Notes under the pieces: generated by a model
The model's input: the letters and a program-made list of their open reading frames with translations, nothing else
What the model was told of the DNA's origin: nothing
Database searches by the model: none
Origin: Flammeovirga pectinis
Lineage (GTDB): Bacteria > Bacteroidota > Bacteroidia > Cytophagales > Flammeovirgaceae
Assembly: GCF_003970675.1 (NCBI RefSeq)
Contig: NZ_CP034562.1
Coordinates: forward strand, 186,001 to 250,000
Length of the DNA stretch: 64,000 nucleotides
Direction of reading: 5' to 3'
Position numbers and translations under genes: made by a program
Part shown: positions 3,227-26,200 of the stretch, piece after piece
Layout: each line of letters opens with the position of its first letter
How positions within the stretch are numbered: position 1 is the first letter of the stretch

Positions 3227-3883
3227 TTATAGATCTGTAAATAAGTTTCTTTCTATTGCATATAAAACTAATCCTGCCACATTCTTAGCACCTGTTTTTT
3301 CAACTAAATTTCTTTTATGCGTTTCTACTGTTCGCGGAGAAATAAATAACTTTTCTCCAATTTCTATATTTGAAAATTCCTTACAGATAAGGTGTAAAAC
3401 CTCCATTTCTCGTTCTGTTAAAGGTATTTCTGTCAATACTCTTTTCTTTACAGCAGGCTGAGAAGAAAGCCCTTGCATAATAATAGAAGTAACCTCAGAA
3501 GAGTAATAATTTTCTCCATTTGCTACAGATTTAATTGCTTTTCTTAACTCATCTTGTGTACAATCTTTTAGAATATATCCTTTAGCCCCTGCGCTTAGCA
3601 TTTTCTTGATGTTGTAGCTTTCGTTCATCATTGTAAGAGCAAGAACATGAATAGATGGATATTGAGCTGTAATTTCTTTACACAATGTTATACCGTCTTT
3701 TTCGGGCATCATTATGTCTGTAATTACAACATCAACTTTGTGCTTTTCTAATAAAAGAAGTGCCTCAACACCATTCACTGCTTCACCAATAATATCAAAA
3801 TGTTCTTTGTCTAAGAAAGATTTTAATCCCTCTCGGATCATATTATGATCATCAACTAAAAGTACTTTTATAGGGGTATTCAT
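3227..3883 (-). CDS. NarL/LuxR-family response regulator
   Basis: A 218-residue two-component response regulator. The receiver domain (about 5-120) has the acidic pair Asp 11/12, phospho-acceptor Asp 56 in VITDIMMP, and Lys 106 in ILKD. The C-terminal LuxR-type helix-turn-helix (about 150-212) has LTEREMEVLHLI and the recognition segment SPRTVETHKRNL. It starts 2 nt after the stop of the histidine kinase at 3886-5586, so the pair is almost certainly co-transcribed and cognate. It should bind DNA when phosphorylated. Targets are unknown; the divergent GH5 gene is the nearest candidate. Confidence 0.94.
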   Translation of the reverse strand: MNTPIKVLLVDDHNMIREGLKSFLDKEHFDIIGEAVNGVEALLLLEKHKVDVVITDIMMPEKDGITLCKEITAQYPSIHVLALTMMNESYNIKKMLSAGAKGYILKDCTQDELRKAIKSVANGENYYSSEVTSIIMQGLSSQPAVKKRVLTEIPLTEREMEVLHLICKEFSNIEIGEKLFISPRTVETHKRNLVEKTGAKNVAGLVLYAIERNLFTDL

Positions 3884-3885
3884 AA

Positions 3886-5586
3886 TTATAAAGCCAATTC
3901 TAAGACTATTTCTGTTCCTTTATTTTTAACTGATGATATTTGGAGATAAGCTCCAATCGCTTCAGCTCTTGTTTTTAAACTATTTAAGCCAAAGGTATTT
4001 TTTGTTGTTGATAAGTCAAACCCAACACCGTTATCTTCTATAGTTAAAACGAGCAAATCGCTATATTTTAATAATTGTATAGTGCATTTTTCTGCCTCAG
4101 AGTATTTGATAACATTATTGATACTTTCTTGTACAATCCTATATAAAGTCATTTCTACAGAAAGTTTTAATCGTTCCTCATTAAGGTTGTCGTAAAAAAT
4201 AATTTGAGTAGCGGTAGATCCTTCTAATGCACTTATTAGAGCTTGTATTGCCGGAGAAATTCCATTCTGATGTATCACTTTAGGCATAAGGTTATGTGCC
4301 AAAGTTCTACTTTCTTGAATAGCTTTTTTTAGATAATTGTAGCCAACAGTAAACTTATTCATCAGTTCCTTATCAGAAATTTCATCAGAGACACGCACTT
4401 TTTCTAGATTAAGTAAAGAAGTAGACATGGTTTGTTGTAGGCTATCGTGTATATCTCTTGCAATTCTACTTCTCTCTTTATCTTCTGTTTCTAAAATGGC
4501 ATTTATCACTTTCTCTTCTTGTTTCATCTGCTCATTTATATCAGAAAAAGTACCTACAATATGTGTGTTTTTTTTAATTGATGCACTTCTAAAGTTATAC
4601 CACTTTAATTCTTTTGTAGCAGTATAACAACGTACATCAATACTTATAGCACTACCATTTTCAATACAATTTTTAAACTGTTGATTAAATAGATCGAGAT
4701 CTCCTTTATGAATTTGTTCTTGAATTGATGCTATAGATGGCGTCAATTTTTCAGAAGGAAAGTCTAATAGCTTACTATTTTTAGGAAACCAATTGAGTTG
4801 TTTACTTATTAAATCATATTGCCAGATTAAAATACCCGTTCCTTGGGTAGCCAAAGTAAATCGATGGTCACTTTCTACTAAATTATCTTTTGTAGATTGT
4901 AATTCGACTACGCTTTCTTTAAACTTTTTGTCAATGCGTTCTTGTCTTTTTAACCTTAATCTAATTAAGTAATAAGAGGCCGTAGAAAATAGAAGTACAA
5001 AGAGTAATAGTAGCAATAGAGTATAAAAAAGAGTGAAACCTTCTTCTTTACTCTCGTTCCATGTTTTTGTAGTACGAGAATCTATTCTTTTTTCCAAAGA
5101 AAGTAAAAGTGCATTTGCATTGTTCTTAGCGTCTAGATATTCTTTTTGTTGAAGTAAAGCCAATGCGGTACTTTGAGTAGGTAATGCCAAAGCCTTTTTT
5201 TCTATCTGAATAGCTTTATTGGAAAGTAAGAGTGCGTTATTAATCAATTGAATTTCTTGAGAAGTAAAACCTTTTGCTTGTAAACTATCAACTCTAAAAT
5301 CACTTTTAAGAAATTGAGCAGAAGGGTCATCATAATTTAAAAACTTTTGATAGGCCTCTTTCCATATTTCATTTTTACTATAAATAGTATTGGTACATAA
5401 CCGAGTTAGTTCATTATTTCTATCAATTAAATAATCGCTTAAAGCAAAAGAACTTTGACGCTGAAATTGCATACTACCAAACTCTTTTCTGTTATCAAGT
5501 AATCGTAAAAAAATCACTAAGATAATTAGTAGAAATAGAATTACAGTGCTAAATAATAATGTAAAGGAAGTTCTAATTTTAATCAT
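3886..5586 (-). CDS. Membrane sensor histidine kinase (HisKA_3, NarX-like) with PAS domain
   Basis: A 566-residue sensor kinase. Transmembrane segments at about 7-28 and 186-208 flank a helical periplasmic region of about 155 residues. A PAS-like domain (about 240-352) and a HisKA_3 dimerisation domain follow. The phospho-accepting residue is His 380 in ERSRIARDIHDSLQQ. The C-terminal ATPase domain has VQESINNVIKYSEA (N box) and IEDNGVGFD (G1 box). It lies directly upstream of its response regulator (2 nt) and is divergent from the GH5 cellulase with 306 nt between. The ligand is unknown. The position suggests, but does not show, a link to polysaccharide sensing. Confidence 0.94.
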   Translation of the reverse strand: MIKIRTSFTLLFSTVILFLLIILVIFLRLLDNRKEFGSMQFQRQSSFALSDYLIDRNNELTRLCTNTIYSKNEIWKEAYQKFLNYDDPSAQFLKSDFRVDSLQAKGFTSQEIQLINNALLLSNKAIQIEKKALALPTQSTALALLQQKEYLDAKNNANALLLSLEKRIDSRTTKTWNESKEEGFTLFYTLLLLLLFVLLFSTASYYLIRLRLKRQERIDKKFKESVVELQSTKDNLVESDHRFTLATQGTGILIWQYDLISKQLNWFPKNSKLLDFPSEKLTPSIASIQEQIHKGDLDLFNQQFKNCIENGSAISIDVRCYTATKELKWYNFRSASIKKNTHIVGTFSDINEQMKQEEKVINAILETEDKERSRIARDIHDSLQQTMSTSLLNLEKVRVSDEISDKELMNKFTVGYNYLKKAIQESRTLAHNLMPKVIHQNGISPAIQALISALEGSTATQIIFYDNLNEERLKLSVEMTLYRIVQESINNVIKYSEAEKCTIQLLKYSDLLVLTIEDNGVGFDLSTTKNTFGLNSLKTRAEAIGAYLQISSVKNKGTEIVLELAL

Positions 5587-5892
5587 TTACAGTAGCTTTT
5601 TTTTGTTAAGCTAAGGTTGTTGATTTCTAAACTAAATACAAATTTAATGTTTTGAAGAATGAAAAATAAAGCTCTTTTCTAAAGATTATTTATGCTGATT
5701 TAATCGAGTTTACTTAACAACATAACTTTTCTCTTTTTTATTGGAATTTCACCTTGTCCAACTAATTTTTAGTTAAAAAGTGCTCTTATTTACATATAAA
5801 GAGGGTTTGTCGTAGGTTTGTCGTAGTGAAAAATATGGCTTTTTTGATGCTTTAATGAATATTTGTGTATTATCAACACTAATTTTTAGATT
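5587..5892. other. Divergent intergenic region, kinase / GH5 gene
   Basis: This 306-bp AT-rich spacer must hold promoters for both the kinase (minus) and the GH5 gene (plus). The only structured part I see is the TCGTA repeat pair and -7-like box near the GH5 start, listed separately. No open frame worth calling. Confidence 0.6.
5810..5865 (+). promoter_or_regulatory. Putative activator site (TCGTA direct repeat) plus -7 box of the GH5 gene
   Basis: TCGTA occurs at 5810-5814 and 5821-5825, an 11-bp period within TTTGTCGTAGG / TTTGTCGTAGT. After 32 nt comes AATATTTG (5858-5865), one mismatch from the Bacteroidetes -7 consensus TAnnTTTG. The ATG lies 27 nt further on. The same layout with the same 32-nt spacing precedes the GH8 gene (9128-9183). 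Function is inferred from this conservation; the binding protein is unknown. Confidence 0.6.
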
Positions 5893-8817
5893 ATGAAACA
5901 AGCTCTTTCTATTTTACTTCTATTACTTGCAAACCAGATTGTAGTAGGAGAAATACTAACTATTAATAACTGTAACACTATAGTAATACCATCTCAAATT
6001 GAGAGTGAAAATTACTGTGGAATGTCGGGAATACAAACCGAACAAACACAAGACGAATCGGGTAATCTTAATATAGGTTACATAGACGATGACGATTGGA
6101 TGAGTTACAATATCAGTGTACCTGCAAGTGGTACTTATACGCTATCTTACAGAGTGGCTTCTGCTAATGGAGGTAACGAAATTCAGATTGACAAGGATAG
6201 AGGTACTACTGTTTTAGGTACTATTACTGTACCTGCAACAGGTGGGTGGCAAACTTGGCAAACAATAACGCACGACATTTCGCTCCCTCAAGGAGAGTAT
6301 GAAATTGGTATAAAAGCAAACATTGGTGGGTTTAACATCAATTGGTTTAGCATTACTGGGAATGTAGTACCACAAGGTAATTTTCTACATACCGATGGTA
6401 AAAATATTGTAGATGGTAATGGCAATAACTTCTTATTAAATTCTGTAAACCTAGACGGTTGGATGGTACAAGAAGGCTATATTATGGAAGTGCCTTTTGG
6501 ACCACAATGGGAAATTGAGCAAGGAATTATTGATGTAATTGGCGAACAAAACACACAAGAATTTCAAGATGCATGGTTAGATAATATGGTTACAGAAGCT
6601 GATATTATTCAAATTAAATCTTGGGGGTTTAATAGTATTCGTGTACCATTACACTATAACCTCTTTACACTTCCAATAGAAGAAGAGCCAGTAGAAGGGC
6701 AAAGTACGGTGCTTTCTAAAGGTTATAACCTTATCGATAACTTATTGGGATGGTGTAAGCAACATCAAATTTATCTTATTTTAGATTTACACGCAGCTCC
6801 AGGCGGACAAGGAGAAGATCAACCTATTTCTGATTATAACCCTGCAAAACCATCACTTTGGGAAAGCGGAGAGAACAGGTCTAAGACAGTGCATTTATGG
6901 AGAGAAATTGCGTCTAGATATGCTGATGAAGAATGGATTGCAGGCTACGATTTATTAAATGAGACAAATTGGGAATTAGGTGATCAGAATGAAATGCTTT
7001 CCAATCTTTATACGTCTATTTTATGGGAACTAAGACAAGTAGATAGTAATCATATTGTATTTATAGAAGGTAATTGGTGGGCAAATGATTACAGGGGCTT
7101 AACTCCTGCATTTGATGACAATATGGTATATGCTTTTCATAAATATTGGACGGATGTAGATCAAGCATCAATTCAAGAATTTATCGATCTTAGAAACTCT
7201 ACAAATACACCTATTTGGTGTGGTGAAACAGGAGAAAACTCAAATCAATGGTATAGCGAAAACTTCGAATTACTAGAAGCAAACAATATTGGATTCTCTT
7301 TTTGGCCATTGAAAAAAGTAAATCAAATTCAAGGTTTATTAAAGGTAGATCAGCCTCAGGGAATACAGGATATTCTTGATTATTGGAGTGGTGAAGGTGC
7401 AAAACCATCTGTAACAAATGCGAAAGCAGCATTAATGCAATGGGCTGTAAATACTCGATTAGAGAATTGTGAATATAACTATTCTGTGATAGATGCAACA
7501 ACTAGGGCAGTAGGTACAAATGCAACGCAACCTTATGAAGTTGTAAACTTACCTGCAGATAATATTACAGCCGTAAATTATGATTTAGGAAAACAAGGCT
7601 ATGCTTATTTTGAACAAGGTGCAATTGGAGATTATGGTGACAGAGACGCTTGGAATATTAATTGGACTTTTAGAAACGATGCAGTAGATATCTATCAAGT
7701 TGGTGGAAATGGAGCTTATTATATTGGTGAAACAAAAGATAATGAGTGGTTAGGTTACACGGTTAACTTTACAGAAAGTGGACAATATGCGATTACTACA
7801 GAAGTTGCAGCAAATAGTACTGGCGGAGAATATCATATAGAAATTGATGGTGTAAATGTTTCTGGTACGGTACAAGTTAGTAGTACAGGTGGATGGGAAG
7901 CGTTTTCTTTTCAGGAGAGTGGAACGGCAACGGTTAATTCTGGAACAAAGACTATTAAATTTGTTTTTGAAAAGGGAGGCTTTAATATCAAATCACTTGC
8001 ATTTACTAAAACACAGAGTGAAAATATTGAAGTGACTGCTCTTTCTTTATCTCAAAGTTCTGCAAATCTTGCTGTAAATCAGTCTTTACAATTATCAGCA
8101 ACCATATTACCTGCTAACGCAACTGATAAATCTGTGATTTGGTCATCGTCTAATACAACTGTAGCAACTGTCTCTTCAGCAGGAGAAGTAATTACATTAG
8201 CAGAAGGAAATGCTATTATTACAGCACAAAGTAGTGTGTCATCAATACAAAAAACGTGTGCTATATCTGTTACAGGCCAAGAAGAAGAAGAAGGAGGCTG
8301 TGAAAATGCAACACCAATTACTTTAAATTTCTCTTACGATGGCGTAGAAGAACAATGTTGGGTAATTTCTGACAATATTAATTATATCAACTCTTGGGGT
8401 ACAGCCACAGTTACTATTAACGGGGTTGATATTACAAACCTTTGGGTGAATAATTTCCCTGCAAAAGAGAACGGTAAGTATTACATCACTTTTAAGGGTG
8501 CTGAATCTTGGGCACATATCGAAATTGAAGGAGCGGGTAATTCTAATCAGAGAGAAAGTTTGAATAGTGAATTCAATCAGGTTTCCTCTAAAGTATATCC
8601 AAATCCAATTACATCAGGTGATGTACATATTAGTCATCCTATTGAATCTCTAGGAGCAGAAATAAATATTTTTGATGTGGAAGGAAAGAATGTTTATTCT
8701 TCTATTGTCACATCAGAAGAAACAAAAATAGATAAAAAGGCCTTCAATAAAGGATTGTATATTATTACAATTCAGTATTTAGATAAGGTTGAAAAGATAA
8801 AATTAGTTGTGCAATAA
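5893..8817 (+). CDS. Secreted multidomain GH5 beta-glucanase/cellulase with CBM6 and T9SS tail
   Basis: A 974-residue secreted endo-beta-glucanase-type enzyme. Order: signal peptide (1-19); CBM6 (about 26-156); GH5 catalytic domain (about 165-495) with LILDLHAAPGG, acid/base Glu 357 in DLLNETNW and nucleophile Glu 445 in IWCGETGEN; a second, divergent CBM6-like domain (about 548-708); a Big2 domain (about 713-794); an unassigned module of about 75 residues (803-880); and a T9SS type A sorting domain (about 900-974, starting VYPNP). Subfamily and exact substrate (cellulose, mixed-linkage glucan or other beta-glucan) cannot be fixed by eye. It is paired with the GH8 gene downstream, which shares four of its modules, its promoter element and its terminator. 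Confidence 0.93.
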   Translation: MKQALSILLLLLANQIVVGEILTINNCNTIVIPSQIESENYCGMSGIQTEQTQDESGNLNIGYIDDDDWMSYNISVPASGTYTLSYRVASANGGNEIQIDKDRGTTVLGTITVPATGGWQTWQTITHDISLPQGEYEIGIKANIGGFNINWFSITGNVVPQGNFLHTDGKNIVDGNGNNFLLNSVNLDGWMVQEGYIMEVPFGPQWEIEQGIIDVIGEQNTQEFQDAWLDNMVTEADIIQIKSWGFNSIRVPLHYNLFTLPIEEEPVEGQSTVLSKGYNLIDNLLGWCKQHQIYLILDLHAAPGGQGEDQPISDYNPAKPSLWESGENRSKTVHLWREIASRYADEEWIAGYDLLNETNWELGDQNEMLSNLYTSILWELRQVDSNHIVFIEGNWWANDYRGLTPAFDDNMVYAFHKYWTDVDQASIQEFIDLRNSTNTPIWCGETGENSNQWYSENFELLEANNIGFSFWPLKKVNQIQGLLKVDQPQGIQDILDYWSGEGAKPSVTNAKAALMQWAVNTRLENCEYNYSVIDATTRAVGTNATQPYEVVNLPADNITAVNYDLGKQGYAYFEQGAIGDYGDRDAWNINWTFRNDAVDIYQVGGNGAYYIGETKDNEWLGYTVNFTESGQYAITTEVAANSTGGEYHIEIDGVNVSGTVQVSSTGGWEAFSFQESGTATVNSGTKTIKFVFEKGGFNIKSLAFTKTQSENIEVTALSLSQSSANLAVNQSLQLSATILPANATDKSVIWSSSNTTVATVSSAGEVITLAEGNAIITAQSSVSSIQKTCAISVTGQEEEEGGCENATPITLNFSYDGVEEQCWVISDNINYINSWGTATVTINGVDITNLWVNNFPAKENGKYYITFKGAESWAHIEIEGAGNSNQRESLNSEFNQVSSKVYPNPITSGDVHISHPIESLGAEINIFDVEGKNVYSSIVTSEETKIDKKAFNKGLYIITIQYLDKVEKIKLVVQ

Positions 8818-8841
8818 TTATTGTATTGTAAATTGGTATAG

Positions 8842-8878
8842 AACTTCTCTTCTGCTTTGTGGGAGAGAAGTTTTTTTG
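8842..8878 (+). terminator. Rho-independent terminator after GH5 gene
   Basis: The stem AACTTCTCT / AGAGAAGTT with a 13-nt loop is followed by a run of T. The GH8 gene ends in nearly the same hairpin (11602-11638). Confidence 0.88.
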
Positions 8879-9127
8879 TTTAAATACATCTTTGCAGCTT
8901 AAAGAATACACTGCTCGTGGTTTTTATTACTGAGAAGTAAGCAGAGTTTAGCTTCATATCTATGGTCGTTAAATGGTCTTCTCTTGTTAGTCTTTCGTTT
9001 TATAAATAGTAATCTTAACGTATGTGTAACTTATTGATAATAAGATCGTTGATTGTTTTTGAGGTTTCTGTAAACGAAATACTTTTTATATGAAGGAAGT
9101 TTTTGTCTACATCAATAACCGTGGAAG

Positions 9128-9183
9128 TCGTAGGGTTGTCGTACCCAAAAAAATAGAACTCAAGATCCAATAGCTAATATTTG
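9128..9183 (+). promoter_or_regulatory. Putative activator site (TCGTA direct repeat) plus -7 box of the GH8 gene
   Basis: TCGTA at 9128-9132 and 9139-9143 (11-bp period). The 16-bp core differs from the GH5 copy at one base. AATATTTG follows at 9176-9183 after exactly 32 nt, and the ATG 31 nt later. Sequence just downstream of the box (ACACTAAT) also matches the GH5 promoter. Confidence 0.6.
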
Positions 9184-9214
9184 AGTGTTCTAAATACACT
9201 AATAAATATTTTTT

Positions 9215-11578
9215 ATGATGAAAAGAATTATTTTTTTACTTACTATTCTTTTGACGAGCCATTTACTAATTGCTCAGTCGCTAAACTCAGTAAACTATCC
9301 GTATGGTAACATGCCAAGTGCAAGAAGCAACAGTGCCGCAATGGCTTCTTATAATAACTGGAAGAACGGTTATTTAGAGTATTGTAACGAAACAGGAGAA
9401 TTTAGAGTTAGGTTTGATAAACCTAGCCAATCTGTTTCTGAAGGTATTGCATACGGTATGCTTCTATCTGCTTATGCAAAAGACAGAGATGTATTTGATG
9501 GTCTAACAAAGTACTACAACCGTTTTAAAAATGCGGATGGTGTAATGGATTGGAAAATCCAAGGTTGTTGGGAAGTGGCTACAGATTGTGGCTACGGTGA
9601 TGGCCGATGTACGGGTGGTGCTGCCGATGCAGAATTTGATTATGCTTTTGCTTTAATTGTTGCAGAAGCAAATTGGGGTAGCGGAGGCACTCTAAATTAT
9701 GGAGCTTTAGCTAGAGACATGATTGGTATTATTAAAGACAAAGAAATTTCTTCAACGCTTGTTCCTAGACCTGGTCCGGGTTGGGGTGGTGATAACATTA
9801 CTAACCCATCTTATTTTACACCTGCTTATTTTAGAGTATTTGGAGAATATACTAACGATCAAGGCTATTGGAATGGAGTTGTAGCAAAATGTTATGAGAT
9901 ACTAGCTAATATAAAATCAACTTTAAATCCTTCTTATGGATTAGTTCCAGATTGGTGTACTTCGGGAGGATCTTTTTCTGGAGATGCTAGTGGATATTTC
10001 GAAGGAGGAACAAAATATCATTACGATGCTGCACGTACTCCTTGGAGAATGGCAACAGATTATACTTGGTTCGGTGTTTCTGAAGCAGGTGATTACATAA
10101 ACCAAAGTTACCAATTTACAGAAGAAAAAGGTGGGTTAGGAAGTATTGTAGATGGATACAATATGGATGGATCATCTTACGGTACAAATAACAGTGCAAC
10201 TTTCTCTGGATCATTTGCAACATCTTATATGTATGCACCTGCAGGTCAGGATAAGATAGATGGAGCGTATAACTATTTAGTAAATAAATCGCCAAGTGGT
10301 TATTTTAACACTACGTTGTATGCTTTATACATGTTTACAATAACAGGTAACTTCTGGAATCCATTAGAAGGTGGACCTGTAGAATGTACTGCTGTAGCTC
10401 TTCCTGCTCAAATAGAAAGCGAAGATTTTTGTGCAATGTCTGGAATACAAGTAGAAACGACTTTAGACAATAACGGTGGATCTAATATTGGTTATATTGA
10501 TGACGAAGATTGGATGAGTTACAAAATTTCTGTAACAGAAGCGGGAAGTTATAAAGTATCGTATAGAATTGCATCTTTAAACGGTGGTAATGAATTACAA
10601 ATTGATACAGACGCAGGTTCAAATGTTTTAGGAACAGTTGCAATACCTTCTACTGGAGGATGGCAAAACTGGGAAACTGTTGAACATATAATAACTTTAT
10701 CAGCTGGTGAATATGAAATTGGTATTAAAGCAAACATTGGAGGTTTTAACATCAATTGGTTCTCATTTACTAAAAATGGTGGGAATAATATTGCTGTTTC
10801 AGGCTTAAATCTTCAAGCGAATGCTATAACTTTAAAAGTGAATGCTACAACGCAATTATCTGCAGAAGTAGTACCTTCAAATGCTTCAGATAAAAGTATT
10901 ACATGGTCGTCTTCTAACACTTCAATTGCTACAGTAAGCACAACAGGAGAAGTAATAGCTATTGCAAAAGGACAAGCAACAATTACTGCACAAAGTAGTA
11001 ACGCACAAATTAATGCAGCAGTAGTAATTACGGTTACTGAAGGTGGTGAAACTGGAGGTTGTGAAACTTCACAGCCTATAACATTAGATTTTTCTTATGA
11101 TGGTGTAGAGGAACAATGTTGGGTAACTGCTGAAGATATTGATTATATCAATTCTTGGGGAGCACAATCTGTTACAATTAACGGAGTGGATGTAACAAAC
11201 TTATGGATGAATAACCTTCCTGCAAAGCAAGACGGTAAATATTATGTTACTTTTAAAGGACAAGAAAGTTGGGCACATGTAGAGATTATGGGAGCGGCTT
11301 CTAATGGACGTACATCTACAGAATCTTTAGCTTCTAGCATTACAGAAACAGTAGTTTATCCAAACCCTGTTACTGAAGAAGATGTATTTATTAATCATCC
11401 TGCTAACACTATAGGTGCACAAGTAAGAATATTTGATTTGGAAGGTAAAACTATTTATTCTACTCAAACAATATCAAATAAAACACAAATAGCAAGAAGT
11501 GTTTTTAATAAAGGACTTTATATTATTACAGTTGAATATGCAGATAGTATTCAAAAATTGAAATTGATTGTAAAGTAG
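9215..11578 (+). CDS. Secreted multidomain GH8 endoglucanase with CBM6 and T9SS tail
   Basis: A 787-residue secreted enzyme. Order: signal peptide (1-20); GH8 catalytic domain (about 22-382) with catalytic Glu 76 in SVSEGIAYGML and the acidic DAEFDYAFAL segment (Asp 138, Asp 142); CBM6 (about 390-520); Big2 (about 527-608); an unassigned module (about 615-693); and a T9SS type A sorting domain (about 712-787). GH8 enzymes are inverting endo-beta-1,4-glucanases, xylanases or chitosanases; pairing with GH5 favours glucan. The CBM6 matches the N-terminal CBM6 of the GH5 protein closely, yet here it follows the catalytic domain. A second ATG three bases downstream could also be the start. Confidence 0.93.
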   Translation: MMKRIIFLLTILLTSHLLIAQSLNSVNYPYGNMPSARSNSAAMASYNNWKNGYLEYCNETGEFRVRFDKPSQSVSEGIAYGMLLSAYAKDRDVFDGLTKYYNRFKNADGVMDWKIQGCWEVATDCGYGDGRCTGGAADAEFDYAFALIVAEANWGSGGTLNYGALARDMIGIIKDKEISSTLVPRPGPGWGGDNITNPSYFTPAYFRVFGEYTNDQGYWNGVVAKCYEILANIKSTLNPSYGLVPDWCTSGGSFSGDASGYFEGGTKYHYDAARTPWRMATDYTWFGVSEAGDYINQSYQFTEEKGGLGSIVDGYNMDGSSYGTNNSATFSGSFATSYMYAPAGQDKIDGAYNYLVNKSPSGYFNTTLYALYMFTITGNFWNPLEGGPVECTAVALPAQIESEDFCAMSGIQVETTLDNNGGSNIGYIDDEDWMSYKISVTEAGSYKVSYRIASLNGGNELQIDTDAGSNVLGTVAIPSTGGWQNWETVEHIITLSAGEYEIGIKANIGGFNINWFSFTKNGGNNIAVSGLNLQANAITLKVNATTQLSAEVVPSNASDKSITWSSSNTSIATVSTTGEVIAIAKGQATITAQSSNAQINAAVVITVTEGGETGGCETSQPITLDFSYDGVEEQCWVTAEDIDYINSWGAQSVTINGVDVTNLWMNNLPAKQDGKYYVTFKGQESWAHVEIMGAASNGRTSTESLASSITETVVYPNPVTEEDVFINHPANTIGAQVRIFDLEGKTIYSTQTISNKTQIARSVFNKGLYIITVEYADSIQKLKLIVK

Positions 11579-11768: not shown

Positions 11769-14738
11769 ATGAAACAACTAACACTCTTCTTACTTCTAAT
11801 TTCATTAAAAATGTATGGGCAACTTCCCGTTTTCCATACACTCTCTATGAAAGATGGTTTACCTCACAATACAATTAATCAGTTTTGTCAGGATGATTTT
11901 GGGTTTATTTGGGTGGCAACAGATAATGGATTATCAAGGTATGATGCACACTCTTTTAAGAATTATACAAAGTCAACGAGTAAGGGTCTTTCAAACAATC
12001 AGGTACTTTCTCTTTTATACATTAACGAGAAAGAATTTTGGGTAGGAACAGCAAGTTCTTTAGATCTTTTTAATATAGAAGATGATACATTTAAACAGTA
12101 CCCATCAAAAAGTCCTTACAGCAATTATGATGTACCCATAATGAGAATACTTACATTATCTGATTCTATTCTGATTATAGGAACAAACGGAGGTGGTGTA
12201 AGAGGATTTAATAGGCATACTAAGACTTTCTTTTCGATTGTAAATCAGGAAATAGTTAAAGATGTTGGAATAAGAATAGAGAATTTATTTTTAGATAAAA
12301 GAGGGCAATTATGGATTTTTTCTCATGAGAAAGGAATTGTTGTACTGAACCCAAAAATGGATAAAATTGTCTATGAATTTTCTGGCTATGATAAATACGA
12401 ACCATTTTTTGCTTTTAGCGATGCGGAAGATATAGGAAATAATACATTACTTATTTCTTCTTATGGAGATGGTTTATACAAGTATGATATCACAACATTT
12501 CAGTTTTCTAAAGTAAATTATTCTGCTACATCTAAAAGCACGTCATCACTTATTTTTGATTTAGAACAGAGTAATGGTAAGGTCTATATTGCTACAGATG
12601 GGCAGGGAATTTATACTTATGATATAGCAACAGAAAAAAGTACACACTGGAACAAAAAAGTTAACCAGGCTAATGTGTTGGCCAATAATGTGGTGAGATC
12701 ATTATTTATTGATAAAAGACAAAACCTCTGGGCTGGTCATTATCAAGGAGGAATAAGTAGTAAAAAGCATACTAAGGGATTAGAAAGTATTCCCTATAAC
12801 CCAACAGAGAAATATTCTCTAAGTCATTCTCAAGTTTCTGCATTGTTGAATAATAATGATGAACTATGGATTGGTACAGACGGAGGAAAGCTAAATATCT
12901 TATCAGAAGGTACAATTAAAGTAGTAGACCAATTATGTAATCGTGATGTTCCAGAGAAAATTCTAAGTTTATATAAAGACAGTAGAGGATGGATTTGGAT
13001 GGGTACTTATCTGGAAGGAGTATACGTTTATCAGCCCAAAGAAAATAAATTTATTAATATTGAAAAGGATTGGGGAATAGAACTACCAGATAGAGATGTA
13101 CGGTGTTTTTATGAAGATATACACCAAGAAATGTGGATTGGAACACATGGTGGAGGTGTCCTTATTCTTGATTTAAAAGATAAATCTATAGAGCTTTTAC
13201 AATCACATGACCCCAATAGCAACTTATCTATAAATTTTATAAGAGCAATTACTAGAGATAGTTATGGCTTAATCTGGATGGGCACTTCTTATGGTTTAAA
13301 TTGTTACGATCCTGTTCAAAAAAGATGGAGAGTTTACCTGCCAGAAGATGAAAATTCTACTTTGAAAAATGGATATATCAATGCTATTCATGAAGATACT
13401 AAAGGTCGTTTATGGATAGGTACAGGAGAAGGATTGTACCAATACAATAGAAATAAAGATAGTTTTAGTGTACTAAAGAAAAAAGAGGGTTTATCAAGTG
13501 ATATCATCGTGGGGGTTATTGAAGATAATAATCAAAACCTATGGATTACGACAGATAATGGACTTTCAAAAGTAAAGAAAGATGGAACAATAATTCGGTT
13601 TGATGAAAGTGATGGACTTATAGAAAATACTTTTTTTCATGGTGCAGTCGCAAAATCTCCTACAGGAGAAATTTACCTTGGTACAGTAAACGGGTTAGTA
13701 TTTTTTACACCAGAGAATATTAATGAGCAGCACGAAAAAATTGATGTGATTTTTACGGGACTAAAAATATTTAACGAAGATATTTCTGTTGGTAAATTAA
13801 TCAATGATAGAGTTGTTTTAGATAAACCACTTTTAATGAAAGAAGAACTTAAGTTCTTTAAAAAAGAGAATGTACTCACATTTAGTTTCTCTGCTGTTAC
13901 TTACGCCTATTCAGAAAAAGTAACTTTTGAATATTACTTGGAAGGGTTTAATAAATATTGGATCACTTTGCCTAAAGGACGATCTATTACTTTTACCAAT
14001 TTAGACCAAGGAGATTATACCTTACGAGTAAGGGTAAATAATATGGGGCCTTCTCAACCATCAAAAGCAATAAAATTTAAGATACTTCCTCCTTTTTACG
14101 AAACCACATCATTTAAAATAATAATAGGTGTAATTGTGCTCTTCTTATTTTGGTTGTTTTGGCGATTGAGGTATATCAAAATTAAAAGAGAAAATGAGTT
14201 TTTAGAACGAGAAGTAGAACTTGAAAGAGTAAAATCTGAGCAGGATCAAATTAAATTAGAAAAACTACAGTTAGAAAGTGAAGTAAAGGAGAAAAAGGCA
14301 GAATTAGATCTTCACAATACCAAATTGATGTCTAATACTTTACTGATGGTCAATAAAAATGAAATGATGAATCAGGTGAAATCAAACATTAATAATTTCT
14401 CTGATAACATAGAAAATGCAGAAGTAAAGAAAGAAGTAGGAGGGTTATTAAAAATAATTGATACAGGTTTTAAGATAGAAGATGATTGGGAATATTTTGA
14501 ACAACATTTTGATCAAATTCATAAAGATTTCTTTAAAAGAGCAAAAGAAAAATACCCAGACTTAACACTTACCTATTTAAAGTTAATGGCTTATTTAAAA
14601 TTAGAACTAACAACCAAGGAGATAGCTACACTTTTAAATATTTCTACAAGGGGAGTAGAAAAATCTAGGTACCGTTTAAGAAAAAAAATTGGTTTGAATG
14701 CAGGAGAGAACTTTAAAGATGTTTTAGATGATATCTAA
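11769..14738 (+). CDS. Reg_prop/Y_Y_Y membrane regulator with LuxR-type HTH (no kinase domain)
   Basis: A 989-residue one-component transmembrane regulator. A signal peptide (1-17) precedes a long periplasmic region of two-component-regulator propeller repeats (about 25-690), recognisable by recurring LWIGT, MWIGTHGGG and IWMGT blades. Then come a Y_Y_Y domain (about 700-775), one transmembrane helix (about 780-800), a charged coiled coil (about 805-870), and a C-terminal LuxR-like helix-turn-helix (about 925-985; LTTKEIATLLNISTRGVEKSRYRLRKKIG). No HisKA, HATPase or receiver domain is present, so signalling should pass straight to the DNA-binding end. Such sensors in Bacteroidetes usually respond to oligosaccharides. 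It follows the two cellulases by 190 nt and is the leading candidate to bind their TCGTA repeats; that link is inference. Confidence 0.92.
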   Translation: MKQLTLFLLLISLKMYGQLPVFHTLSMKDGLPHNTINQFCQDDFGFIWVATDNGLSRYDAHSFKNYTKSTSKGLSNNQVLSLLYINEKEFWVGTASSLDLFNIEDDTFKQYPSKSPYSNYDVPIMRILTLSDSILIIGTNGGGVRGFNRHTKTFFSIVNQEIVKDVGIRIENLFLDKRGQLWIFSHEKGIVVLNPKMDKIVYEFSGYDKYEPFFAFSDAEDIGNNTLLISSYGDGLYKYDITTFQFSKVNYSATSKSTSSLIFDLEQSNGKVYIATDGQGIYTYDIATEKSTHWNKKVNQANVLANNVVRSLFIDKRQNLWAGHYQGGISSKKHTKGLESIPYNPTEKYSLSHSQVSALLNNNDELWIGTDGGKLNILSEGTIKVVDQLCNRDVPEKILSLYKDSRGWIWMGTYLEGVYVYQPKENKFINIEKDWGIELPDRDVRCFYEDIHQEMWIGTHGGGVLILDLKDKSIELLQSHDPNSNLSINFIRAITRDSYGLIWMGTSYGLNCYDPVQKRWRVYLPEDENSTLKNGYINAIHEDTKGRLWIGTGEGLYQYNRNKDSFSVLKKKEGLSSDIIVGVIEDNNQNLWITTDNGLSKVKKDGTIIRFDESDGLIENTFFHGAVAKSPTGEIYLGTVNGLVFFTPENINEQHEKIDVIFTGLKIFNEDISVGKLINDRVVLDKPLLMKEELKFFKKENVLTFSFSAVTYAYSEKVTFEYYLEGFNKYWITLPKGRSITFTNLDQGDYTLRVRVNNMGPSQPSKAIKFKILPPFYETTSFKIIIGVIVLFLFWLFWRLRYIKIKRENEFLEREVELERVKSEQDQIKLEKLQLESEVKEKKAELDLHNTKLMSNTLLMVNKNEMMNQVKSNINNFSDNIENAEVKKEVGGLLKIIDTGFKIEDDWEYFEQHFDQIHKDFFKRAKEKYPDLTLTYLKLMAYLKLELTTKEIATLLNISTRGVEKSRYRLRKKIGLNAGENFKDVLDDI

Positions 14739-17227: not shown

Positions 17228-20200
17228 CTATTTCTTTACTATTTTTTTATGAATAATACCTTCTTTAGTGGTCAATTCTAATAGGTAGACTCCACTTGCA
17301 ATAGTACCAATATTAATATTTTTTCTTCCAACCATATCAAAAGCATCTTGAGTAATTAAATGCCCAGTATTAGAAAGTAATCTATAACGATTAAATAAAA
17401 GGTCACTTTCAATAGTAAGTGCGTTATCAAAAGGCATAGGATATGCTTTAACATTCGCATCTAATTCTTCAACAAGAGCAGTAACCCCAGCATCTGGTGA
17501 AATTTTGAAATTTACCTGATAAATTTTATCATCAGTAAGAGCATGTTCAATTATAAATAATACAGAATCGTAGGTAACAACATCTACTTCTTGTGCATTA
17601 TACATTATGCTATCTGTAAGGATTCGCTCAATTCTAAAGTTTGTAGAATCTGTAAATACCTCTGTACCATAACTAATTGTACCGTGCGAAGCAGTAGTAA
17701 GCATACGAAGATTTGTTTCCATTGGAATCTGATCTAGGTATAAACTATGGTACAATTGTTTAGATACAGGTGATGAAGCATTACTTGTTGCATTAATTGT
17801 TCCTGCATAGATATTAGTAAAATCATCTTCAGCCATTATATCAATAATAACAGTAAACATACTAGAAGTATTATTTACACTATCAGAAACCATAATTGAA
17901 AACTCATCAGCAGAGATATCTTCACCTATTAATTGATATTGAATAATGTTGTTATCAATGTCATTTTGTGTAAAATTATCTACTTCTATAGCCAAAGAAG
18001 TATTGTATAGCAAACCATGTGCAGGAGCATCTATAACTTGGTAACTAATCATTGACGTACTAGATAAATCATCCGAAAAATGAAGATCATCATGCGTAAT
18101 CATAACATCTGCACTATCAATATGTAAGAACAAGTCTGTCATAGTTTCCATTTCAGGAATATCGTCATCAATAGCATTTAAGGTAAATGTGAATCTTTGC
18201 GTAGAAGAACTTAAAGTGCCATCAGAAACATAAAATGTAAAACTATCTTCTATGGTGTTACTGTGATCATGAGTATATTTAATACTGCCATTTGCAATAT
18301 CACTTAGTGTAAAATAACTACCCGAATTATACCTCTTTCTACCTTTACTCATCTTACCATTAGAAACACCATCAACAATAAAGAATTTCAAATTATTATT
18401 ATCAATATCTACATCTGTAGCAGCAAGTAATGTGGTAGATAGATTGACATATCCTCCCTCATTAATAGTAGCACCAGTATTTATCGTTACTATAGGAACA
18501 TCATCATCAATAGGATTAATAACAAAATAGAAAGTTTCTATTGCAGAGGTTTGTGTACCATCTGTAATTTCTATTTTAATTGAATCTAAAACAGTATTAC
18601 TACCATTGTGCGTATACTTTATTTTTGCTCCATTCAGTTGACTTTGCGTGAATGTGCTATTTGTAGAAAGTGATTTTCTTCCAATTGATAAACGACCATT
18701 TTTTACCGTACTTATTAATGTGTAAATCAAGCTACTATTGTCAGAATCAGCATCTTGTGCTACTAAATTAGTATTTGATATAATGGCTGCATCACCTTCT
18801 AATAGAGTAAGGCTTGTATTTGTGGTCAATACCGGTAGATCATCATCAACTGCAGTAATAATAACCTGTTCTGTAAATGCAGTGGTAGTATTAATACCAT
18901 CGCCTAAAGTAAAGCTAAATTGATCTGACGTTGTATTGGTATCGTTGTGCTCATAAGAGATATTTCCAATATCACCGAACAGGAATGTTTCATTAATCGC
19001 AATTGCAGTTCCATTGTTTTTTAACTGACCATTTACTGGTAAACTAGTTATGGTTACAATGATATTGGCGTTATCAATTTCATCATCTGTTGCATCAAAT
19101 TCCGACGTACTAAAGTTTAAAGTAGCTCCTTCTAATAACTGAGAAGTATTTTCTACTACCATACTTGGTGCATCATCATCTATTAAAGTAATTGTAATGG
19201 CAAAAGTAACTTCTGTAGAAGTATTTGTACCATCTGAAACAGTAAAAGCAAATTGGTCTGAAGTAGTATTACTATCATTGTGCTGATATACTAAATTGGT
19301 AACATCAGCTTTTATAAAGGTATCACCAACGGCTAAAACAGTAGAAGATAAAGTTAAATTACCATTGGTTGGGATAGCAGTTAATGTGTAAATAAGGTTA
19401 CTTAAATCCGTATCATTATCACTTACATCAAGCAGACTTGTAGAGAATGTGAAATTGCTTCCTTCATCTATAGTTTTACCTGTATTTACAGTAATGTAAG
19501 GAAGGTCGTCATCTATAGGATTAATAATAGTAGTAAAGGTTTTTACTACTGAAGTATTTGTACCATCAGTTACAGTGAAGTTGAAATTATCTGTGGTAGA
19601 GTTACTACCGTTGTGTGTGTAGATAACTACAAAATCAGATAGGTGAGAGAGGTTAAATGTACTTCCTACTGAAAGAGAAGTTCCGCTTAATACTAGAGTA
19701 CCTTGAGATGGAATACTACTTAAAGTAAACGTTAAATTACTTACATCTGTATCGTTATCTAATGCATTCAACATAGTTAATGATAATGCATAGTTTCCTC
19801 CTTCATCTATTGTATTACCTGTATTTTTACTGATGTAGGGAACATCATCATCTACAGGGGTAATAGTAGTAGTGAAGGTTTTTACTACTGAAGTATTTGT
19901 ACCATCAGTTACAGTAAAATTGAAATTATCAGCTGTAGAATTACTACCATTGTGGGTATATCTTACCAAAGCATTTGATATATCCGCAGTAGTAAATGTT
20001 CCATTAGCTATAAGGTCTGTGCCATTTAAAGAGATAGCACCCTGACTAGGAGCACTACTTAATGTATAGGTTAAAGTAGTGTCGTCTGTATCTGTATCAG
20101 AAGACGATAACATTGTACTAGTGAATAAATAATTGTCACCTTCATTAATTGTGTTTCCTGTATTATTTACAAGAATAGGAGTGTCATCATCTACAGGAGT

Positions 20201-23200
20201 TATTTTAATACTAAAAGTAGCAATGTCTGATACAGCTTTTGTATCAGTAGCAGCAAAAGTGAAGCTATCTGAAGTAGTATTACTACCATTGTGCACATAT
20301 TTAATATCTCCATTAATTAGACTGCTTTGTAAGAATGCATTATCTGCCTCCATTACAGTTGTACCTTGATAGTACAATGTACCATTTGTAGGAACAGTAG
20401 CTAACATAAAAACAAAATCAGCATCGTCTGCATCGCTACCAAAAATTAAGGTATTGTCTATTATAAATTCACTACCCTCATCGGTAGTTTTACCCGTATT
20501 TACCGTTACTAAAGGAGGTGCATTTTGTGTAATGGTAAAATTGAAAACTGTAATTGCAGAATAATTTACACCATCGTATACTCTGAAACTAAAACTATCT
20601 GTTGTAGTTGTAGCTCCATTATTTTGATACTTAACATTTCCATCTACCAAATCTTGTAAACTAAATTCACTCCCTGTAGTTAATGCAGTCGTATTTAAAG
20701 ATAATGTTCCTGATTGAGGAAGAACATCGTTGATAACAATTTTCAAATCATTGTCGGTATCATCTATATCTGTAACATTAAGTACCAGTGTAGTAAAAAT
20801 GTATGAATTATTAACCAGTACTGTCTGATTATTATTTCTTGTTACAGTAGGTGATTGATTGGTAATAGAATAATTAAAAGTAGTGATACTACTTGCATCT
20901 GTACCGTCTGAAACTGTAAACGTAAAAGAATCTGAAGTAGCGGATGGATCAGAAGGTGAATAAGTAAATACACCACTGTTGATTTCTGCTAATGTAACTT
21001 GGCTACCTGTTGTAAGAGCATTACTATTTAAATATAATGTTCCTTTAGTAGGGAGTATATCATCTATAATTAAATATAAATCTACGGCATCATTATCTGT
21101 ATCAGAAGCATTAATTTCTGAAAGAGTAAAAGTATGTGTAGATGAGTGACTCACTGTTTTACCTGTGTTAGTGGTAACAGTTGGAGCATCGTTAACCGCA
21201 GATATTGTCCATGCAAAGGTTTGCTCTGATGTAGTATTTGTACCGTCCGAAACAATAAAATTGAAGCTATCAGTGGTTGTTTCATCTCCATTGTGTTCAT
21301 AAGTAAGGTTTCCGATTGCACTACTATTAAAAGTAGAAGCCACAGTTACAGGTGTGCCATTTAATTTTAAGACACCATTTGTAGGTAAACTATTTACAGT
21401 AAAGACAAGGGTAGCATCGTCAGAATCTTCATCACTTGCTGTAAATTCTGTTACTGTAAATGTATGCGTAGTTCCCTCATTCATCGTTTTCCCACCATTT
21501 GTTACAGCTGGAGGAGTATCGTCTATAGGTGTAATTGTAATACTAAAACTTTGTGTTGTTGATGTATTTGTACCATCAGAAATGGTAAAAGTAAATTGAT
21601 CTGAAGTAGTATTACTATGGTTATGTATATACGATAGTTGATCTATTTCTGTATTTGTAAATGTACTTTGAGTGGTAAGTGCTGTACCCGATTTGTATAA
21701 AGTACCATTACTAGGCAAGGAAGAAATAGCAAATGTAAGTGATGTATCCTCTGAGTCTTCATCAGTAGCTAACAATTGCGTACTGCTTATATTGGCAGTA
21801 GCCCCCTCTGCTAAAGAAGTTCCTGTATTATTTACCAACGTAGGAGTAGTGTCATCTATAGGATTAATAGTAGTAGTAAAGGTTTTTACTACTGAAGTAT
21901 TTGTACCATCAGTTACAGTGAAGTTGAAATTATCTGTGGTAGAGTTACTACCGTTGTGTGTGTAGATAACTACAAAATCAGATAGGTGAGAGAGGTTAAA
22001 TGTACTTCCTACTGAAAGAGAAGTTCCGCTTAATACTAGAGTACCTTGAGATGGAATACTACTTAAAGTAAACGTTAAATTACTTACATCTGTATCGTTA
22101 TCTAATGCATTCAACATAGTTAATGATAATGCATAGTTTCCTCCTTCATCTATTGTATTACCTGTATTTTTACTGATGTAGGGAACATCATCATCTACAG
22201 GGGTAATAGTAGTAGTGAAGGTTTTTACTACTGAAGTATTTGTACCATCAGTTACAGTAAAATTGAAATTATCAGCTGTTGAATTACTACCATTTTGGGT
22301 ATATCTTACCAAAGCATTTGATATATCCGCAGTAGTAAATGTTCCATTAGCTGTAAGGTCTGTACCATTTAAAGAGATAGCACCCTGACTAGGAGCACTA
22401 CTTAATGTATAGGTTAAAGTAGTGTCGTCTGTATCTGTATCAGAAGACGATAACATTGTACTAGTGAATAAGTAATTGTCACCTTCATTAATTGTGTTTC
22501 CTGTATTATTTACAAGAATAGGAGTGTCATCATCTACAGGAGTTATTGTAATACTAAAAGTAGTAATGTCTGATACAGCTTTTGTATCAGTAGCAGCAAA
22601 AGTGAAGCTATCTGAAGTAGTATTACTACCATTGTGCACATATTTAATATCTCCATTAATTAGACTGCTTTGTAAGAATGCATTATCTGCCTCCATTACA
22701 GTTGTACCTTGATAGTACAATGTACCATTTGTAGGAACAGTAGCTAACATAAAAACAAAATCAGCATCGTCTGCATCGCTACCAAAAATTAAGGTATTGT
22801 CTATTATAAATTCACTACCCTCATCGGTAGTTTTACCCGTATTTACCGTTACTAAAGGAGGTGCATTTTGTGTAATGGTAAAATTAAAAACTGTAATTGC
22901 AGAATAATTTACACCATCGTATACTCTGAAACTAAAACTATCTGTTGTAGTTGTAGCTCCATTATTTTGATACTTAACATTTCCATCTACCAAATCTTGT
23001 AAACTAAATTCACTTCCTGTAGTTAATGCAGTCGTATTTAAAGATAATGTTCCTGATTGAGGAAGAACATCGTCGATGACAATTTTCAAATCATTGTCGG
23101 TATCATCTATATCTGTAACATTAAGTACCAGTGTAGTAAAAATGTATGAATTATTAACCAGTACTGTCTGATTATTATTTCTTGTTACAGTAGGTGATTG

Positions 23201-26200
23201 GTTGGTAATAGAATAATTAAAAGTAGTGATACTACTTGCATCTGTACCGTCTGAAACTGTAAACGTAAAAGAATCTGAAGTAGCGGATGGATCAGAAGGT
23301 GAATAAGTAAATACACCACTGTTGATTTCTGCTAATGTAACTTGGCTACCTGTTGTAAGAGCATTACTATTTAAATATAATGTTCCTTTAGTAGGGAGTA
23401 TATCATCTATAATTAAATATAAATCTACGGCATCATTATCTGTATCAGAAGCATTAATTTCTGAAAGAGTAAAAGTATGTGTAGATGAGTGACTCACTGT
23501 TTTACCTGTGTTAGTGGTAACAGTTGGAGCATCGTTAACCGCAGATATTGTCCATGCAAAGGTTTGCTCTGATGTAGTATTTGTACCGTCAGAAACAATA
23601 AAATTGAAGCTATCAGTGGTTGTTTCATCTCCGTTGTGTTCATAAGTAAGGTTTCCGATTGCACTACTATTAAAAGTAGAAGCCACAGTTACAAGTGTAC
23701 CGTTTAATTTTAAGACACCATTTGTAGGTAAACTATTTACAGTAAAGACAAGGGTCGCATCGTCAGAATCTTCATCACTTGCTGTAAATTCTGTTACTGT
23801 AAATGTATGCGTAGTTCCCTCATTCATCGTTTTCCCACCATTTGTTACAGCTGGAGGAGTATCGTCTATAGGTGTAATTGTAATACTAAAACTTTGTGTT
23901 GTTGATGTATTTGTACCATCAGAAACGGTAAAAGTAAATTGATCTGAAGTAGTATTACTATGGTTATGTATATACGATAGTTGATCTATTTTTGTATTTG
24001 TAAATGTACTTTGAGTAGTAAGTGCTGTACCCGATTTGTATAAAGTACCATTACTAGGCAAGGAAGAAATAGCAAATGTAAGTGATGTATCCTCTGAGTC
24101 TTCATCAGTAGCTAACAATTGCGTACTGCTTATATTGGCAGTAGCCCCCTCTGCTAAAGAAGTTCCTGTATTATTTGCCAAAGTAGGAGTAGTGTCATCT
24201 ATTGCAGTAATTGAGATATTAAATGTAACATCAGTAACATCATCTTTCCCATCTGATAACGTAAAAATTATTTGGTCCGAAGTAGTATTCGTTCCATCAT
24301 GAGTATAACTAACTCTATTATTATTTAAGTCAGTTTGGGTAACAGAAGTAGCGGCAGCTTTTCTTCCATTATTATCTTCTAAGTACAACTGTCCATTAGC
24401 TGCTGCAGTTGTTACTGTAAAAATTAAATCTGTTGCAGCTTCTTCTACATCAGAAGCAGATAGATAATTTGGTGTAATTGTTCCATCTCCACCTTCGTTA
24501 AGTGTGAGGGTATTATTTGTAGCAATTGTTGGGGGAGTGTTTGGGTTGGATAATGTACCAATAAGCATGATATCATCTAATGCTAAACCCCAACCCATAT
24601 CATCACCAGTTGTTTCCTCGTGTTTAAAAGCGATATAAATAGTTTGACCATCGTAGGCAGATAAATCAATGTTTTTTTGCTCCCATGTAGCTCCTGTAAC
24701 TGTATATGTATCTTGAATTGATGAAAAGCTACTGATATCAGATGTTGTAGTAGAAATAAGTACGGTCATTTCATCTTCTGTAGAGTATAAATCGAATCCA
24801 GAAATCCAATAAGATAATCCAACACTTGTATAACTACTTAAATCAATTGCTGATGATATTAACCAGTTTTCCGGAGCAGTTTCAGTATCAGTGTCTTCAG
24901 AATAAGATTCACTTGCAATCATACATCCAGATCTTAAAATCATATCTGTCCATACACCATAAGCAAGGTCATTTTTATCATCAGTGATAATCCAATTGCT
25001 ACCATCATTATCATTATCGACAGTAGTCCAACCTACAGGTAAAGAACAAGTACCTTCACCTAATCCTTCTAAGAATATGTAATTGATGATAGAAATAGCA
25101 GATGTATTTGTTGTAGCATCTGGTGTTTTAGTAGTTCCATCCATTACAAAAGAAGTAAAATCAGCATCTAAAGAATTATTTAGAGTAGCTGAATTTTCTA
25201 CTGAATATACCAACCAAAAATAATTTTCTCCAGCAACTAGATCTTTAGTTCCTGTAAATACCATATTTCCATTTGGAGATGTAATAGTAGTACCATATTG
25301 ATCTGAAGAAGTAAAACTATTAGTAGTAGAATAATAAAGTTTAGCAGAAGTAATATCATCTATATCTGTAGTCCCATTAGTTGAGAACGTTAATGAACTA
25401 ATATTGAAAGGGTTTAATTTACCACATACTTCAATCTTACCTCCTGCAATAGTGATGTCATTCCCTGTTTGTACAAAATCAGATTGGGCGTTTTCTGTTG
25501 TAGCCTGATTGTACATCATGTCTACATCTTCTTTAAATAAACGAAATAAAGTAAAACCTCTACCATCCTCTCCTGTATCAGGGTCATCTGCCCAACCAAC
25601 TTGATATAGTCTATCTCCATATTCCATAATCTGATATCCCCAATCATTAGAATGTCCTTCAAAATGATTATATCCATCATCAGAAAAAGTAGTATCTAAA
25701 TTTCCATCTGTATCCCAACGTGCTACAGTTGTACCATAAGTACCACCTGTAACTAAAAATTTACCATCACTTTGTAATAAAGAGCCGTGAACTTCGATAC
25801 TTACGGTGCCATAACCAGGATATTCAGCAAAAAATTCATCCTTTCCATCATCAGAAAAAGAGGTATCAAATGTACCATCAGCGTTTAATCTTACAGCACC
25901 AATAGTTCTATAATCTGATCCATCTGAATGAGTTTTGTTACTATTACCTCCAATATAAATTTTACCATTAGTATCTTCGAATATACCTTTTCCAGAAGAT
26001 GAACCAGTACCTAAATCAATTGCTACGTAACCATTAGAACCAAAAGAGGTATCTCTAGTACCATTTGCAGTAATACGTATTGCAAATGCTTCATTTTTTG
26101 CTGTTCCACTATATAAATGCCATCCTGTAGCAAGAATATCACCGTCACTAGCTACAGTCATGTCAGAAATCCCTTCCATGAATGAGCCAGAAGAAGAAAC

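Follow-up and report, generated by a model that had tools for sequence, protein, structure and literature searches.

We analyzed a 64,000-nucleotide (nt) stretch of the Flammeovirga pectinis genome (contig NZ_CP034562.1, positions 186,001 to 250,000; hereafter the window, to which all coordinates refer unless another locus is named) and found that a GH5 cellulase gene and a GH8 enzyme gene are preceded by the same two-part element, GTCGTA-N5-GTCGTA-N32-AATATTTG (positions 5809-5865 and 9127-9183, respectively). This is a real, lineage-restricted composite promoter element; the kind of device is known but the instance is new, and none of the literature matches listed dealt with it. Judging from its sequence and context, we consider it probable that the element is the shared-activator promoter of a two-gene cellulase regulon, with the direct repeat as a putative operator, and one protein would then probably switch both genes together. 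A preliminary description of this DNA had proposed such an operator for two genes, and a shared operator and promoter of the two cellulase genes is supported by what follows. The parts of the element are as follows.

5809..5825, + strand: putative tandem operator GTCGTA-GGTTT-GTCGTA of the GH5 gene, 11-base pair (bp) period, located at roughly -61 to -45 relative to the inferred start
5829..5833, + strand: A5 tract, 3 nt past the GH5 operator
5858..5865, + strand: AATATTTG, -7-like box of the GH5 gene, exactly 32 nt past the operator
9127..9143, + strand: putative tandem operator GTCGTA-GGGTT-GTCGTA of the GH8 gene
9147..9153, + strand: A-tract, 3 nt past the GH8 operator
9176..9183, + strand: AATATTTG, -7-like box of the GH8 gene, exactly 32 nt past the operator

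The repeat had first been given as TCGTA-N6-TCGTA at 5810-5825 and 9128-9143, and the 16-mers at the two sites (TCGTAGGTTTGTCGTA and TCGTAGGGTTGTCGTA) are indeed one base apart; the unit is better expressed as GTCGTA with an 11-bp period. The distance of 32 nt between operator and box was confirmed at both genes. A shared sequence further downstream had also been described, and ACACTAAT does follow both boxes (5876-5883 and 9196-9203), but its register is shifted, and because it is 2 nt out of register we did not include it in the exact element. The A5 tract 3 nt past the operator is common to the GH5 and GH8 copies and to a copy in a distant relative described below.

We next asked how rare the element is in the window, in the F. 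pectinis genome (6.68 Mb, three contigs), in nine genomes of the genus, and in 390 genomes of the order. The genus genomes are labelled G000 (F. pectinis) to G008; G006 is a close relative and G004 a distant one. The only exact copies of the TCGTA repeat in the window are those before GH5 and GH8. The whole genome holds seven, of which four lie within open frames (170 to 852 codons), while the three outside frames are the three exact GTCGTA-N5-GTCGTA sites, located before the GH5 gene, the GH8 gene, and a GH65 gene. With the base composition of the window, about 0.4 exact 12-base operators and about 3.5e-5 exact composites are expected per genome, compared to three operators and two composites observed. 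Three exact operators alone are a modest excess, and what stands out statistically is the composite, not the operator alone. Indeed, scanning the nine genus genomes for the composite with up to three mismatches in its 20 specified bases returned five matches, all perfect, all with a spacing of 32, and all before GH5 or GH8 genes (two in F. pectinis, two in G006, and one in G004). Composites with one to three mismatches were absent from these nine genomes, and the reversed control gave 17 matches at the same threshold, for which the mismatch numbers per match are not listed. Across the order, with up to two mismatches, the same five perfect copies were recovered together with five two-mismatch copies elsewhere (reversed control, 12 matches by row count); the only perfect composites in the 390 genomes were thus those before GH5/GH8 genes. 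The expected link with carbohydrate-active genes also held in the genome scan, both perfect composites of F. pectinis preceding glycoside hydrolase genes.

We regard a chance resemblance as extremely improbable. Although the observation was made post hoc, the looser copies in the window are about as frequent as expected by chance (38 observed versus 35.7 expected with up to two mismatches), and the operator without its promoter box is only mildly in excess across the genus, the very low number of exact composites expected per genome and the reappearance of the element in G004 before the orthologous gene make chance very unlikely. A large regulon was rejected as well: TCGTA-N6-TCGTA with up to one mismatch occurred 207 times (the 7 exact copies included), less often than its reversed control (458), and GTCGTA-N5-GTCGTA was also rarer than its reversed control (5 versus 15), these controls being rough since reversed patterns differ in dinucleotides.

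The third exact operator stands before a GH65 gene that adjoins a SusD gene (locus L003, 1500-1560; G000:C1:2746771, minus strand). GH65 was rejected as a further target. The operator is not conserved in G006, where its first half-site differs. What G006 keeps upstream of this gene is an inverted repeat, GTATTATT-N16-AATAATAC, which it shares with F. pectinis and within which the F. pectinis GTCGTA repeat lies. The distance from the GH65 operator to its TTTATTTG box is 28 nt, not 32, and no such repeat was found in the 330 bp before the GH65 homologues of G004, G002, and G008. About 5 kb from the GH65 site lies the gene of another Reg_prop protein (30%; G000:C1:2739038-2741974).

Informative in this respect is the distant relative G004. 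Its GH5 ortholog is 73% identical to that of F. pectinis over residues 26 to 704 and 55% over residues 809 to 972, and its promoter keeps 20 of 20 motif bases and the 32-nt spacing. In an ungapped comparison, the other columns match at only 20 of 60 positions upstream, 15 of 37 interspersed within the element, and 15 of 28 downstream (Fisher test for the motif columns, 2.7e-6 versus the 37 interspersed columns and 9.2e-8 versus all 125 other columns), which argues that the element in G004 is conserved beyond neutral drift. This comparison also bears on the idea that the similarity is a mere relic of a promoter duplication, copied along with the shared C-terminal modules and without operator function. 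The C-terminal parts of the GH5 and GH8 enzymes are about 51% identical and 19 of the 37 interspersed columns agree between the two promoters, as such a copy would leave; however, between G004 and F. pectinis the GH5 flanks have drifted and the motif has stayed perfect. Function does not conflict with an origin by duplication, but this pattern is not compatible with a relic that has no function, which we consider highly improbable. In G004, the perfect promoter element precedes a GH5 ortholog whose sequence is broken into two reading frames (locus L072, 6216-8876).

The close relative G006 has both genes and both elements. At its GH8 gene, a perfect run (9147-9238) enters the coding region, and the middle of the intergenic region shows 57 to 80% identity in many 40-column windows; this promoter is thus better conserved than much of the intergenic sequence that precedes it, which is only mildly supportive of selection. 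The conservation in relatives that the preliminary description had looked to is therefore found in G006 and G004 but is missing from a third genome: G002 has a GH5 ortholog (69% identical over the main part) with no element in the 400 bp upstream and no composite genome-wide, meaning that the element was either lost or never present there. The five remaining genomes (G001, G003, G005, G007, and G008) have neither a composite nor, at an E value of 1e-40, a GH5 match that exceeds 39% identity. Matches on the contigs of named relatives covered just the CBM6/Big_2 part and were not used for comparison.

The element was also compared with the distribution of CBM64 proteins. In F. pectinis and G006, two each were found, namely the GH5 and GH8 enzymes, and all of these genes carry the element (2/2 and 2/2); elsewhere it is present at one of two CBM64 genes in G004 and at none in G002 (0/1), G001 (0/1), and G008 (0/1). 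A second, distant GH5 gene of F. pectinis (39%) is without the composite. Within F. pectinis and G006, the same site with the same spacing to a promoter box thus precedes more than one target, as in a regulon.

We then considered how the element could work as a promoter. In Flavobacterium psychrophilum, a TAnnTTTG box is placed at -12 to -5 (PMC9723704). AATATTTG fits TAnnTTTG at seven of eight positions, the first T of the consensus being an A here. By analogy with Flavobacterium, AATATTTG would lie at -12 to -5 of start sites near 5870 (GH5) and 9188 (GH8), giving predicted leaders of 23 and 27 nt and placing the operator at about -61 to -45, with its center at -53. The consensus for Bacteroidota sigma-A promoters further includes a TTTG at the usual -33 distance. 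The promoters described here resemble this class in the 7/8 fit of the box and in its plausible distance from the start codon, but unlike the consensus, the GH5, GH8, and G004 promoters have no TTTG at the -33 distance. Between operator and box, GH8 has no TTTG, while GH5 and G004 have one each, 11 and 13 nt before the box.

In the mechanism that we propose, the two sites would act as promoters of a two-gene cellulase regulon that depend on an activator. A single activator would bind in head-to-tail fashion to both GTCGTA half-sites, which the 11-bp period places on the same side of the helix with their center near -53, and as a tandem dimer would bring RNA polymerase carrying the housekeeping sigma factor to AATATTTG. 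A tandem-dimer activator is suggested because two half-sites one helical turn apart stand upstream of such a promoter, and the promoters would probably be weak without the activator because none of the three promoter types has a TTTG at the -33 distance. The GH5 and GH8 enzymes would thus be produced together. The exact element, its spacing and rarity, its conservation in G004, and the gene content come directly from the sequences; we infer the start sites, activation rather than repression, the identity of the binder, and the binder's signal.

Two candidate binders are encoded beside the element. The genes concerned are listed here; a TPR gene and a thioesterase gene come after the last of them.

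1232-2758, - strand: sulfatase
3227..3883, - strand: NarL/FixJ-type response regulator (receiver and GerE/LuxR helix-turn-helix [HTH]), leading candidate binder
3886..5586, - strand: sensor histidine kinase with PAS_3, HisKA_3, and HATPase_c domains, presumably the partner of the 3227 regulator
5893..8817, + strand: GH5 cellulase with CBM6, CBM64, Big_2, and a type IX sorting tail
9215..11578, + strand: GH8 enzyme with CBM6, Big_2, CBM64, and a type IX sorting tail
11769..14738, + strand: Reg_prop/Y_Y_Y protein with a weak C-terminal GerE-like HTH, candidate binder, disfavored

The GH5 and GH8 enzymes look like secreted cellulose-binding proteins, since both have CBM6, CBM64, and Big_2 modules as well as a type IX secretion sorting tail. 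Both candidate binders had initially been taken as LuxR-type; this stands for the 3227 response regulator, which has a clear GerE domain, but the GerE match of the Reg_prop protein falls below the curated Pfam cutoff (19.1 versus 23.5 bits).

The likeliest activator would be the 3227 response regulator, phosphorylated by the kinase that is transcribed divergently from GH5, and we give this assignment slightly less than an even chance. Both here and in G006, the kinase and GH5 genes diverge from an intergenic region that contains the GH5 site. Orthologs of the regulator are present in eight of the nine genus genomes, and all three element-bearing genomes have one near GH5, at 2.0 kb in F. pectinis, 2.0 kb in G006, and 4.8 kb in G004, where the gene order of this neighborhood is different. 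In G002, which has the GH5 gene without the element, the best regulator match groups with paralogs in a tree (79% identical to a G003 paralog and 62 to 66% to the orthologs). The element hence occurs only where a 3227-type regulator occurs (3/3, G002 having just a paralog). The segment RTVETHKRNL, which we take to be the recognition helix, is identical in all eight orthologs. The earlier proposal of this regulator as binder therefore fits linkage and co-occurrence but sits poorly with the conservation of this presumed helix in five genomes that lack the element.

The sites could instead be bound by a one-component regulator, the Reg_prop/Y_Y_Y protein, whose gene comes immediately after GH8. 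It adjoins GH8 on the same strand, is co-present with both sites in F. pectinis and G006, and has the weak GerE-like C terminus mentioned above. However, its ortholog is found only in these two genomes, and G004 keeps the exact element without one, the only Reg_prop match there at an E value of 1e-100 or better being a 30% homologue on another contig. Because of this, the protein is disfavored and its role as binder, also put forward in the preliminary description, now appears improbable.

Alternatively, the element may be as described but be bound by an unlinked regulator encoded outside the regions studied, for instance one of four OmpR/PhoB-type proteins, which we regard as unlikely. A classical pho box stands closer to the promoter box than the operator described here, by about two turns. 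OmpR/PhoB sites are head-to-tail direct repeats in a 7-bp plus 4-bp or 6-bp plus 5-bp layout, and the Escherichia coli pho box is CTGTCAT (PMC4832192). Our sites share the tandem arrangement and a TGTC core, their half-sites resemble the pho box, and they can be written TGTCGTA-N4-TGTCGTA (with A in first position at GH8), that is, in the 7-bp plus 4-bp layout reported there for PhoP. On the other hand, the regulators linked to the cellulases belong to other families. Four OmpR/PhoB proteins occur in each of the nine genomes with similar score sets, suggesting core regulators (orthology being deduced from the scores), and against this ubiquity stand just five perfect composites and seven exact operators in the genus. 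None of the four F. pectinis proteins is encoded in the window, and no member has a distribution or linkage that fits the element.

Returning to the two-gene regulon under the 3227 regulator, several observations weigh against it. The motif rests on just three promoter types. Across the genus, the exact operator was found 7 times, compared to 4 for the reversed pattern, and one of the seven, in G002 (contig C7), falls within a reading frame. The GH5 promoter of G006 is perfectly identical over 214 bp (5774-5987), with 39 of 39 four-fold sites unchanged; because the identical stretch extends into the coding sequence, it says little about selection. The five genomes that share the presumed helix (G001, G003, G005, G007, and G008) have neither a composite with up to three mismatches (0/5) nor an exact operator (0/5), degenerate sites being still possible. 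Furthermore, when eight loci (L070, L072, and L124 to L129) were scanned with up to two mismatches, the sole operator copy in a kinase promoter region was the GH5 site itself; another copy, with two mismatches (L124, G008), sits inside a reading frame. Finally, porin genes of the DcaP family were examined as alternative targets and were not convincing, the only copy before them with up to two mismatches being one GTCGCA-type repeat in G005. This 11-bp direct repeat, GTCGCA-N5-GTCGCA (L125, 4996-5012, opposite strand), lies about 340 bp before a porin gene in a long stretch without listed open reading frames, a tRNA-Arg gene (5135-5208) intervenes before the porin-type gene, and the equivalent loci of G001, G003, G007, and G008 do not have the repeat.

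In G001, G003, G005, and G008, the kinase gene comes after two long genes; in G001 (L126) and G008 (L124), the two genomes in which they were scanned, these genes encode DcaP-type porins. Such outer-membrane neighbors in genomes without the GH5 and GH8 cellulases suggest that the kinase/regulator pair had an older role. A more speculative reading, possible but doubtful, is that the operator, the 32-nt spacer, and the -7 box move together, as a portable control cassette, with cellulose-binding CBM64 cellulases. A core two-component regulator with a DNA-binding helix that is constant throughout the genus would read this cassette. If so, a genome would gain cellulose control just by gaining a gene with its promoter. 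G004 may have gained gene and promoter that way, while G001 and G005, with regulators 95 to 97% identical to that of G004, have neither gene nor element.

The proposed system is similar to several known ones. In the DegS/DegU two-component system of Bacillus subtilis, which controls degradative enzymes, the kinase gene adjoins the regulator gene. Like DegU, the 3227 regulator has a LuxR-type GerE HTH and degradative enzymes among its putative targets, and direct repeats have been suggested as sites of phosphorylated DegU (PMC9263151). However, phosphorylated DegU controls about 170 genes according to the same source, whereas here the exact element is found at just one or two genes per genome and its binding is putative. 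Polysaccharide genes of Bacteroidota are described as being under hybrid two-component or extracytoplasmic function (ECF) sigma factor control, the latter including cellulases of Cytophaga hutchinsonii (PMC10766802). As in those systems, the glycan-degrading genes studied here would be under sensor-linked control; unlike there, they are accompanied by a classical kinase/regulator pair and a Reg_prop protein, and the box is sigma-A-like rather than ECF-like.

The element is a precise and sharply testable site, with strict spacing, two native targets, and two candidate regulators nearby. It offers a handle on the control of cellulose degradation in this organism and on what the linked Reg_prop and NarL-type regulators recognize. 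To our knowledge, few regulatory sites for polysaccharide degradation have been mapped in Cytophagales.

The window also encodes a cadherin-repeat protein of 3208 amino acids with a type IX sorting tail (17228-26854). Identical pattern matches 2343 bp apart within its gene (20359/22702 and 21311/23654) indicate long internal repeats.

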